Part shown: piece after piece, positions 56,964 through 60,011 of the stretch
Layout: every line of letters begins with the position of its first letter
Numbering within the stretch: position 1 is the first letter of the stretch
Assembly (NCBI RefSeq): GCF_947496725.1
Contig: NZ_CANMDS010000001.1
Location: 186,001 to 250,000, forward strand
Origin: an uncultured Dokdonia sp.
GTDB taxonomy: Bacteria; Bacteroidota; Bacteroidia; Flavobacteriales; Flavobacteriaceae
Reading direction: 5' to 3'
Length of the DNA stretch: 64,000 nt
Position numbers and translations under genes: made by a program
The notes under the pieces: model-generated
Seen by the model: only the letters and a program-made list of their open reading frames with translations
Told to the model about the DNA's origin: nothing
Databases searched by the model: none

Positions 56964-57045
56964 GAAATCTATAAATATGTGTTAACGATGATCCACAAGC
57001 AAGTGGGTTTCGTACATTTATAAACATTTTAAAGTTAAACAACCT

Positions 57046-57909
57046 ATGAAACGATTATTGATTGCTGGTATAGCTAGCACTTTACTCTTAACTTCTTGCG
57101 TTTCTAAAAAAGAATATGCTGCGCTAGAAGCGAGACAGCAAGAAACTCAAGACCTTTTAAACTCTGCTACGGTTAAGCTCAACGCTTGCCTTGAAGAAAA
57201 AGCAAGTGCAACCACTCGTGTAAAATCACTTGAGGAGCGAGTTGCCGAAATGAGAAATGACAAGAATGAACTTATACAAAGTTCTAAAGACCTTACGGTT
57301 CTTACTAAGCAGGGCGCTGTAAATCTTGAGAAGTCACTTGAGAGCCTTAAAGAAAAGGATCTTAAAATTAATAGACTACAAGATGCCCTTACTAAAAAGG
57401 ATAGTGTAACTCTTGCTCTAGTAACTAGTCTTAAACGTGAGGTAGGTATCAATGATCAAGATATTGAGATTAATGTAGAGAAAGGTGTGGTATTTATATC
57501 ACTATCTGATAAAGTACTCTTTAAGAGTGGTAGTTACCAGATTACTTCTAGAGCAGAAGAGATACTAGGTAAAGTTGCTACTGTTATAAATGGTAAGCCA
57601 GACTTTGAAGCGCTAGTAGAAGGTCATACAGATGATGTACCTTATAATAGAGGTGTCCTCATAGATAACTGGGATCTAAGTGCAAAAAGAGCAACTGCTA
57701 TTGTACGTAAGCTTGTTGAGCTAGGTGCAAACCCTGCACAACTTATTGCAGCTGGACGAAGTGAGTTTGTACCACTTGTACCTAATGACACTCCAGAAAA
57801 TAAATCTACAAACAGAAGAACGAAGATTTATGTACTTCCTAAGATTGATCAATTTTATAATATGATTGAGCAGGAAATGAAAAATATGTCTGAAGAAGAA
57901 GGGAACTAA
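57046..57909 (+). CDS. OmpA-family lipoprotein
   Basis: 287 residues. Lipoprotein signal MKRLLIAGIASTLLLTSC followed by a long coiled coil (about 25-125, heptads with ARQQETQDLLNSATVKLNAC) and a C-terminal OmpA-like domain (about 150-270). The latter holds VLFKSGSYQITSRAEEILG, VEGHTDDVPYN with the conserved Asp, LSAKRATAIVRKL and RSEFVPLVPNDT then NRRTKIYVLP. It anchors the outer membrane to peptidoglycan. It is followed by a strong terminator, so it is a single transcription unit. Confidence 0.94.
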   Translation: MKRLLIAGIASTLLLTSCVSKKEYAALEARQQETQDLLNSATVKLNACLEEKASATTRVKSLEERVAEMRNDKNELIQSSKDLTVLTKQGAVNLEKSLESLKEKDLKINRLQDALTKKDSVTLALVTSLKREVGINDQDIEINVEKGVVFISLSDKVLFKSGSYQITSRAEEILGKVATVINGKPDFEALVEGHTDDVPYNRGVLIDNWDLSAKRATAIVRKLVELGANPAQLIAAGRSEFVPLVPNDTPENKSTNRRTKIYVLPKIDQFYNMIEQEMKNMSEEEGN

Positions 57910-57937
57910 TCCCAATCTATTTTAACAAGATTTGACT

Positions 57938-57967
57938 AAAGGTTACCGTTTAACGGTAACCTTTTTT
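57938..57967 (+). terminator. Terminator of the OmpA lipoprotein gene
   Basis: AAAGGTTACCGTT (57938-57950) pairs with AACGGTAACCTTT (57952-57964), with Ts continuing to 57967. The stem is strong and the loop is formed by its central bases. Confidence 0.9.
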
Positions 57968-58021
57968 CGTTCATATACACAATTCTGACTCGACGAAAGA
58001 CACGCCGAACTACCAAAACAC

Positions 58022-58110
58022 CGATTAAATACACAAATTACACGATTAAATGTTAAAAAATCGTGTATTTCGTCGATAATCGAGAAAATAGTGTTGTTTA
58101 CCGATTAAAT
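58022..58110 (+). promoter_or_regulatory. Operator-like repeats in the LRR gene promoter region
   Basis: CGATTAAAT occurs three times, at 58022-58030, 58043-58051 and 58102-58110; the third lies between the -33 and -7 elements. Two palindromes lie among them: TACACGATT/AATCGTGTA (58039-58047 and 58059-58067) and TCGATAATCGA (58073-58083). The layout suggests control by a repressor or by several dimers. Confidence 0.55.
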
Positions 58111-58123
58111 GCTCTTACATTTG
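58094..58123 (+). promoter_or_regulatory. Bacteroidota promoter of the LRR gene
   Basis: TTG (58094-58096), 19 bases, then TACATTTG (58116-58123), a full match to TTG-N19-TAnnTTTG. The transcript should start near 58130, so the ATG at 58109 cannot be used and translation starts at 58151. Confidence 0.8.
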
Positions 58124-58150
58124 AATAACCCAATCATAAACAAGAGAACT

Positions 58151-58912
58151 ATGAAATCAATTACACTAACTATCCTTTGCTTCTTTTTTACAGCTTTTGC
58201 TATCGCAGAAATTACTCCTGCTCAAAAACAAGCCCTTGTAGATTTATACAACAGCACAAACGGTAATGAGTGGACAAACTCTTGGGATCTTAACGATTCT
58301 CCAGAAAACTGGAAAGGTGTAACTATCTTTAGAGATCAAGTTCTTGCAGTAAGTTTAAGAGACAATAACTTAACGGGTACATTACCTGCTTCTTTAAGTA
58401 ACTTAACTTCTCTTAAAGTACTTAATTTACACAACAACAAACTAGAAGGAACAATACCAGCAAGTCTTGCTACTATAAAAGGGTTAAAAACAATTAACTT
58501 ATCTCTTAATAGACTAGAAGGAACAATACCTACAAATATTCTTGCAATGGGTTCGCTTGAGTATTTAGATCTTTTCTTTAACCGTCTTGAAGGTTCTTTA
58601 CCGACAGATCTTTCTGGATTAAAGAAACTTAAAAGATTAAGCATTTACAGTAATGACTTAGAAGGTGAGTTACCTAGCTCAATCACAAGTCTTACTAACT
58701 TAAAAGAATTACAACTTAACAGTAATAAATTTACTGGAGAGTTACCAGAAGGAATCGCAATGTTACCATCTTTAAAGAAACTAAGTGTTTTTGATAATGA
58801 TTTTAGCGGTGAGTTTCCAAACAGCATCAACACATTAAGCTTAGATGAGTTAGTTTACCACGATAACAACTTCTCTACAGTAGCATCAGACGCCCTTGCA
58901 GGCGGAGAATAA
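58151..58912 (+). CDS. Leucine-rich-repeat secreted protein, plant-type repeats
   Basis: 253 residues from MKSITLTILCFFFTAFAIAE, a signal peptide; the promoter position fixes this start. A cap ITPAQKQALVDLYNSTNGNE is followed by about seven 24-residue repeats of the plant extracellular type, such as LNLHNNKLEGTIPASLATIK and LDLFFNRLEGSLPTDLSGLK (consensus L-x-x-N-x-L-x-G-x-I-P-x-x-L). Such proteins bind other proteins or glycans at the surface. There is no T9SS sorting domain at the end (ASDALAGGE), so its route and anchor are unclear. Two repeats share an exact 18-base stretch, a sign of recent duplication. Terminator follows. Confidence 0.88.
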   Translation: MKSITLTILCFFFTAFAIAEITPAQKQALVDLYNSTNGNEWTNSWDLNDSPENWKGVTIFRDQVLAVSLRDNNLTGTLPASLSNLTSLKVLNLHNNKLEGTIPASLATIKGLKTINLSLNRLEGTIPTNILAMGSLEYLDLFFNRLEGSLPTDLSGLKKLKRLSIYSNDLEGELPSSITSLTNLKELQLNSNKFTGELPEGIAMLPSLKKLSVFDNDFSGEFPNSINTLSLDELVYHDNNFSTVASDALAGGE

Positions 58913-58970
58913 GTTACTAGTTTCATAGCTAGTAAGCCCCCCAAATCTTTTTATTAGATTTAGTTAAGAG

Positions 58971-58993
58971 CCTCTTCCTTTGAAGAGGTTTTT
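58971..58993 (+). terminator. Terminator of the LRR gene
   Basis: CCTCTTC (58971-58977) pairs with GAAGAGG (58982-58988), followed by Ts to 58993. It lies directly before the end of the convergent Sua5/YciO gene. Confidence 0.75.
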
Positions 58994-58997
58994 CTAT

Positions 58998-59615
58998 TTA
59001 TAGCTCTGGACTTCCTTTTCCTTCTCTTATAAGAATAGGCTCATCACCTGTAAGATCAATTACGGTAGAAGGTACATTGCCTCCATAACCTCCATCTACT
59101 ATTACGTCTACCCTATTTTGCCATTTCTCAAAGATGAGCTCTGGATCTGTGGTATATTCTATCACCTCATCTTCATCATAAATAGAGGTAGATACAATAG
59201 GATTTCCTAGTGCACGTACAATGGCTCTTGTAATCTCATTATCTGGTACACGTATACCCACTTCCTTCTTTTTCTTAAAAGAGCTAGGCAAGTTATTATT
59301 ACCAGGTAATATAAAGGTGTACGGTCCCGGCAGGGCACGTTTTAATATTTTAAAGGTCTTTGTATCTATCTGTCGCACATAATCTGAGAGATTGCTTAAA
59401 TCTTCACACACAAAGGAAAAGTTTGCCTTAGCAAGCTTTACGCCCTTTATCTGCGCCACCTTTTCTAGTGCCTTTGCATTTGTAATATCACAGCCCAGTG
59501 CATATACAGTATCACTTGGGTAAATAATAAGACCACCAGCTTTTAAGATCTTTACAATTTGCTTGAGATCTTTAGGGTTTGGGTTTTCTTCGTAGAGTTT
59601 TATAAACTGTGACAT
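58998..59615 (-). CDS. Sua5/YciO/YrdC-family protein (threonylcarbamoyl-AMP synthase-like)
   Basis: 205 residues. The family signatures are seen: GGLIIYPSDTVYALGCDITN (about 29-48), FSFVCEDLSNLSDYVRQID, LPGPYTFIL and IVSTSIYDEDEV with FEKWQNRVDVIVDGG. The YrdC domain makes the TC-AMP intermediate of tRNA t6A37 in TsaC/Sua5, but this short form with a K-V-A-Q-I-K-G variant resembles YciO, whose role is less certain. I therefore do not give the symbol tsaC. Cytosolic, single gene. The start ATG at 59615 is the natural one. Confidence 0.85.
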   Translation of the reverse strand: MSQFIKLYEENPNPKDLKQIVKILKAGGLIIYPSDTVYALGCDITNAKALEKVAQIKGVKLAKANFSFVCEDLSNLSDYVRQIDTKTFKILKRALPGPYTFILPGNNNLPSSFKKKKEVGIRVPDNEITRAIVRALGNPIVSTSIYDEDEVIEYTTDPELIFEKWQNRVDVIVDGGYGGNVPSTVIDLTGDEPILIREGKGSPEL

Positions 59616-59689
59616 AGCATAACATTTAGATAGGTTAAAATTACAAAGAATAACAGCGCCATAAAGACGCTGTGTATAATTAGGAGGTA

Positions 59690-59905
59690 TTATGCGTCTG
59701 CGCGCTCTACTTCACTTTCTAGCTTGAGTACATTTGTACCGTCTTCTTGCTCTATGTAGAGGGCTTTGTTTCCTTCTTCGCCATCGCGGGTAACTTCGTT
59801 TCCTTTTATGGTACGGGTGACACTCTTTGTAAATGTAGACTGTACTTTACCCTCTGCTGTGCCATTTCCCCAGCTCCATTTTACTTTTGTTCCTTCTTTA
59901 ATCAT
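59690..59905 (-). CDS. DUF2945 / Tudor-like small protein
   Basis: 71 residues. It starts MIKEGTKVKWSWGNGTAEGK and continues with VTRTIKGNEVTRDGEEGNKA and ALYIEQEDGTNVLKLESEVE. This is the hypervirulence-associated (HVA1) Tudor-domain family, DUF2945, a small beta barrel of unknown function widely found in bacteria. Cytosolic. It lies upstream of the Sua5/YciO gene, 74 bases away, with a weak hairpin (ACAGCG at 59653 and CGCTGT at 59668) between. Confidence 0.88.
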   Translation of the reverse strand: MIKEGTKVKWSWGNGTAEGKVQSTFTKSVTRTIKGNEVTRDGEEGNKALYIEQEDGTNVLKLESEVERADA

Positions 59906-60011
59906 CTTGTTTTTTATTTAAAGTTAGGGAGTTTGCCACAAACTCCATAAAAAACTAACGCAACCTTAACATAAAAAGCACATCTACACGTTAGTACTTA
60001 AAACTATCTTA

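Follow-up and report, generated by a model that had tools for sequence, protein, structure and literature searches.

The DNA ahead of the leucine-rich-repeat (LRR) gene probably contains the operator module of an activator. In Flavobacteriaceae this activator would control a group of genes, mostly for exported proteins, to which the LRR gene belongs. In the 64-kb stretch of DNA analysed here (the window, contained in a genome of 3.29 Mb, G000), two near-copies of a 15-base site, TCGAYNAAATACACA, lie upstream of the LRR promoter. The sites are conserved, they are held at a fixed spacing that shifts by one helical turn between lineages, and they recur before other genes. From these patterns we propose that the LRR gene may be one of the activator's most conserved targets, and we file the system as a putative transcription-factor regulon with a candidate regulator. 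To our knowledge, few Flavobacteriaceae regulons have been described, and a literature search with the motif strings found no paper. With a precise consensus, constant spacing, a list of targets and a candidate for the regulator, the activation model can be tested. The lineages, whose -7 boxes differ in position by one helical turn, themselves provide a natural counterpart of the classical helical-phasing experiment.

Promoter elements of the LRR gene in Dokdonia

The elements considered below are the following (positions in the window).

57990-58004, plus strand: weak extra site TCGACGAAAGACACG, two mismatches; doubtful, the genome showing no excess over the reversed control at this level
58021-58035, plus strand: site A, CCGATTAAATACACA, one mismatch to TCGAYNAAATACACA; contains repeat 1 of the original prediction
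58039-58067, no strand: palindrome 1, TACACGATT...AATCGTGTA, arms 58039-58047 and 58059-58067
58048-58056, minus strand: AAATGTTAA element; in the orientation of site C it reads TTAACATTT and occupies +20 to +28; overlaps repeat 2
58062-58076, minus strand: site C, TCGACGAAATACACG, one mismatch to TCGAYNAAATACACA; centre 58069, about -59; the most conserved element
58073-58083, no strand: palindrome 2, TCGATAATCGA, its TCGA common with conserved site C
58094-58096, plus strand: TTG of the -33 element, from the sequence, 19 bp ahead of the -7 box
58102-58110, plus strand: third CGATTAAAT copy, between -33 and -7
58116-58123, plus strand: -7 box TACATTTG; its start and the centre of site C are 47 bp apart
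58151-58912, plus strand: LRR gene, 253 aa; a further in-frame ATG lies at 58109

All elements named in the original prediction were found in the sequence, i.e., three CGATTAAAT repeats, the -33 TTG, the -7 box TACATTTG and two palindromes, with the third repeat between the TTG and the box as described. The box (58116-58123) and the TTG (58094-58096) together correspond to a Bacteroidota sigma-A promoter, which consists of a TAnnTTTG -7 box and an upstream TTG. The CGATTAAAT copies are located at 58022-58030, 58043-58051 and 58102-58110, with one more at 680-688; these four copies in the 64-kb window compare with a shuffle mean of 0.74, and four or more were reached in 1 of 100 shuffles. The name "LRR surface protein" holds for its first part, which is a Pfam match of the gene at 58151-58912, while a location at the surface is suggested by the signal-like N-terminus. 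Further upstream, 57938-57964 forms a perfect-looking terminator hairpin belonging to the upstream OmpA-family gene, which also gave a self-match.

An LRR homologue was present in all 18 Dokdonia genomes, and the sequences upstream of each genome's best homologue were compared (L004 to L021; L021, a fragment, contains an internal stop). The unit that these regions have in common is the 15-base TCGAYNAAATACACA. Site C, in reverse orientation and with up to two mismatches, lies 75-89 bp ahead of the ATG in 17 of the 18 and is absent in L020. A second site (up to two mismatches) was found exactly 41 bp upstream of C in 14/18 orthologues; this upstream partner is inverted in L015 and L019 and sits at 40 bp in L018. 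At the downstream side, 15/18 have TAnnTTnG beginning precisely 47 bp from the centre of C, the exceptions being L016, L020 and L021, and the stricter TAnnTT[CT]G is found there in 7 of the 17 promoters having C. All 17 also carry TGTTAA beside C. Dinucleotide shuffles of these upstream regions equalled the observed best match in 0-2 of 100 cases, the related promoters not being independent of each other.

The claim of a dense regulatory region, to be given up if conservation upstream of orthologues was lacking, is strongly supported, and such conservation was found. The operator unit itself had to be redefined: the orthologues keep TCGAYNAAATACACA instead of CGATTAAAT, which was therefore replaced. 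Repeat 1 falls within conserved site A, and repeat 2 overlaps the conserved AAATGTTAA element. The third repeat is exact in L004 and L006, altered in L005 and missing in the remaining 15 of 18 regions. Palindrome 1 occurs only in L004 (this genome) among the 18 and is missing even in two relatives with a 98% identical protein.

Conservation in other genera and recurrence before other genes

LRR protein matches were obtained in 136 of 299 family genomes. The other-genus set comprised the 28 best-scoring LRR loci of these 136 matching genomes, hence not a random sample, and was reduced to 25 after L384, L398 and L399 were dropped as cut stretches. Among these top-scoring homologues, reverse site C (up to three mismatches) was located at -95 to -66 in 18/25, compared to 8 of 1000 random windows from the same loci, and was missing in seven. 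TAnnTT[CT]G starts exactly 37 bp from C in 16 of the 18 promoters with C, and TGTTAA stands next to C in 7 of the 18. A looser count, allowing a site with up to two mismatches anywhere within 250 bp, gave 10 of 26 other-genus loci. The distance from C to the box is therefore 47 bp in Dokdonia vs 37 bp in the other genera, a difference of 10 bp or about one helical turn. C thus keeps its helical face in both groups, a requirement for contact between an activator and polymerase.

The exact site occurred 127 times in the 18 Dokdonia genomes, all of which contained it, vs 0 for the reversed control. Across the family, it was present in 119/299 genomes (control match in 23 by our own count), leaving 60% without an exact site; as the collection scans considered exact sites, these counts are lower bounds, and the core logo is likewise fixed by the exact-site search. 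Class-wide, 18 of 395 genomes matched, two of them Flavobacteriaceae, and outside the family about 16 matches vs about 27 for the control (counted by eye) represent no excess. With up to two mismatches, G000 itself yielded 66 sites vs 102 for the reversed control, again no excess, and weak sites thus mean little on their own. Among the 204 distinct sites of the fetched loci, which include 140 regions and do not cover every site, 189 were intergenic by naive ORF calls.

The site often precedes genes for exported proteins. By a crude rule, a signal-like N-terminus was found in 77 of 118 genes neighbouring sites vs 58 of 178 ORFs elsewhere in these loci. The LRR gene is a recurrent neighbour, as are a CAP-domain lipoprotein, whose gene diverges from an asparaginase-type gene, and an Ig/DUF1573-type exported protein (Pfam). 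By reading, an ECF sigma factor, the 7TMR-DISM-like P0001 and LepA, the last paired with a divergent receptor-like gene, belong here too; the names LepA, PriA, rpsF, ECF sigma, CoA transferase and ABC transporter come from reading translations, without a family search. A putative ECF sigma-factor gene is preceded by the site in six genomes of different genera (L192, L143, L195, L209, L259 and L167), and such a target could possibly provide a second tier of control. Sensor-kinase genes adjoining sites in G167, G043, G228 and G194 and a membrane protein adjoining a site in G031 were also considered and set aside as scattered and uninformative.

The spacing to the promoter recurs outside Dokdonia LRR loci. 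TAnnTTTG at 46-48 bp was found in 11 of 133 other promoter-side sequences, compared to a permutation mean of 0.87 and a maximum of 5 in 2000 permutations; this set excludes L004 to L021 and retains the other-genus LRR loci, none of which is among the 11. The 11 matches represent about eight gene groups (by reading), and the other 122 sites lack TAnnTTTG at the favoured distance. Of 155 dereplicated sites, 17 have a direct partner at -21 and 19 have one at -20, most sites having no clear partner, and 23 have an overlapping inverted copy sharing TCGA. TTAACA at +20 accompanies 17 of the 155, vs about 0.4 expected.

Proposed activation, candidate regulators and rival explanations

In the proposed mechanism, the activator would bind TCGAYNAAATACACA, with C centred at about -59, A 41 bp (four helical turns) further upstream in the opposite orientation, and the TTAACATTT element between them. 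Positioned ahead of -33 and on the correct face of the helix, it would contact RNA polymerase and turn on the TAnnTTTG promoter, transcription presumably starting near 58128. In the accessible text of PMC9723704, the -7 box of Flavobacterium psychrophilum spans -12 to -5; if the same numbering applies, the centre of C is at about -59 here and at about -49 in the other genera. A position ahead of -33 that is both constant and helically phased suits an activator. The distance is fixed and helically phased as in a class I operator, namely 47 bp in 15/18 Dokdonia orthologues, 37 bp in 16/18 other-genus promoters and the favoured spacing in 11/133 sequences elsewhere vs 0.87. The binding of a protein to these sites and the resulting activation are predictions.

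The original prediction had instead assumed that a protein on the CGATTAAAT copies, chiefly the third, blocks sigma factor. The position of repeat 3 between -33 and -7 would suit such a repressor, and a LytTR-gene promoter in G122 and G249 contains a site-like sequence at which the same protein might repress. However, a copy of repeat 3 exists in just 3 of the 18 Dokdonia orthologues, no conserved site overlaps -33 or -7, and those sites that are conserved keep constant distances upstream of -33, all of which makes the repressor array improbable and argues against the blocking of sigma through the third repeat. A function as RNA (a structured leader) or a pattern arisen by chance is scarcely credible: the palindromes do exist, but the sites lie upstream of the promoter, and chance is excluded by the exact-site counts, the TAnnTTTG spacing permutations and the other-genus conservation compared with random windows. 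Rfam, including Flavo-1, gave nothing at the gathering threshold in 17 sources including the window, except one tRNA; at 57000-60000 a single weak match, STnc390, fell on the upstream terminator hairpin at 57938-57964.

As to the protein that would bind, the genome encodes nine LytTR matches and 14 HTH_18 (AraC) matches. Our favoured candidate, tentatively held and at less than even probability, is the LytTR response regulator at L067 (G000:C3, near 495281). Two 2-mismatch sites 20 bp apart lie before its gene, a pair noticed after the fact; none of 200 shufflings of the nine LytTR loci produced such a pair. The second site is about 37 bp from TAATATTG by our own count. Orthologues in G122 and G249 are 70% identical and have TCGATGAACTGCAA (three mismatches) in the promoter. 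There this site is about 16 bp from TAATATTG (own count), so that a bound protein would block rather than activate. The LytTR response-regulator loci L067, L403 and L404 are syntenic and have site-like sequences in the promoter.

An AraC-type regulator is the less likely choice. The 15-base site is asymmetric, its two blocks are spaced by one turn and its partners stand at 20-21 bp, which is reminiscent of AraC half-sites, and the direct partners at -21 (17/155) and -20 (19/155) as well as the 14 HTH_18 matches of G000 are in line with this. Against it, a scan of seven of the 14 loci in G000 returned 2-mismatch matches only, in two of them, and none was linked to the site. Even more improbable is that P0001, a membrane protein named by eye as 7TMR-DISM-like with a LuxR-like C-terminus (its Pfam and NCBIfam matches are weak), regulates its own gene and others. 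Ahead of the start codon, 12 of 13 Dokdonia orthologues have a site at -80 to -89 (three mismatches allowed), which is exact in this genome. Nevertheless, P0001 has no match in G010 (99% complete) and one of 23% identity in G017, where exact sites number 9 and 12, respectively, and at E 1e-20 it matches in just 12 of 299 family genomes. Given that G010 and G017 have sites without a clear orthologue, a role as master regulator is unlikely, and P0001 is more likely a target than a regulator.

Returning to the LytTR candidate, LytTR operators consist of two direct half-sites about 21 bp apart with the 9-base consensus [TA][AC][CA]GTTN[AG][TG]. The system described here resembles those of AgrA, VirR and BtsR in that a minority of its sites have a direct partner about two helical turns away (17 of 155 at -21, 19 of 155 at -20) and in having LytTR genes in the genome, one of which is preceded by a site-like pair. 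It differs in that the main site has 15 bases and is often single, inverted or overlapping. Compared by eye, the main site does not seem to fit the 9-base consensus, and ACGTTTAAATG, present in some orthologues, nearly fits it. With the class I activator sites near -60 of CRP and MarA/SoxS/Rob, it has in common the fixed, phased distance and the occurrence in either orientation, whereas the consensus is its own, the promoter is of the Bacteroidota -33/-7 type and the binder is predicted. The TAnnTTTG -7 box at -12 to -5 is also common to the Flavobacterium psychrophilum motifs SM1-SM6; these are sigma-factor motifs, and no site resembling TCGAYNAAATACACA is among them in the accessible text (PMC9723704).

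A broader reading, which is possible yet rather doubtful, is that one regulator reading TCGAYNAAATACACA remodels the cell surface through an undescribed, Flavobacteriaceae-specific activator circuit, with a conserved element in the LRR 3'-UTR besides. The regulator would perhaps be a conserved LytTR protein encoded beside rpsF and priA. It would switch on exported proteins of the LRR, CAP-domain, peptidase and Ig types, together with an ECF sigma factor, a LuxR-like protein bound to the membrane and one or more conserved small RNAs.

The LRR 3'-UTR and small-RNA candidates

Downstream of the LRR gene, one further element stands out.

58939-58947, plus strand: CCCCAAATC, within the LRR 3'-UTR; a conserved hairpin-like stretch and a terminator-like stretch come after it

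The 3'-UTR is strongly conserved over 58930-58985, comprising CCCCAAATC, AAATCT...AGATTT and the terminator. CCCCAAATC is exact in 16 of 17 Dokdonia orthologues examined and one base off in L015. As a general UTR signal it was discarded, its excess in G000 being modest (16 vs 6 for the reversed control).

At L035 (G000:C2), a site at 325371-325385 precedes a conserved noncoding stretch of some 200 bases. This stretch begins behind a -7-like box with a CCCCAAATC-like block, and a strong terminator hairpin closes it. Stretches of this type also occur in L090, L087, L089, L139, L225 and L240. The L035-type stretch is a candidate small RNA in Dokdonia and G207, with 35 consensus pairs, 7 of them changed on both sides; L035, L087 and L089 had no match in Rfam. 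Pairing of two small-RNA candidates with the LRR 3'-UTR was unsupported, as 791 and 870 of 3456 windows and 56 of 300 shuffles equalled them. A second small-RNA-like stretch, ending in AATTATGATTTGGGGTGAAA and a terminator, was seen in L364 (near 741-830), L326, L345 and L138 (near 1583-1650). It occurs in G000, G001, G004 and G207, with a motif site just upstream in G207. In the same genome, positions 1634-2170 of L138 hold a unit of about 133 bases in tandem, with CCCCAAATC in each copy, adjoining a motif site.
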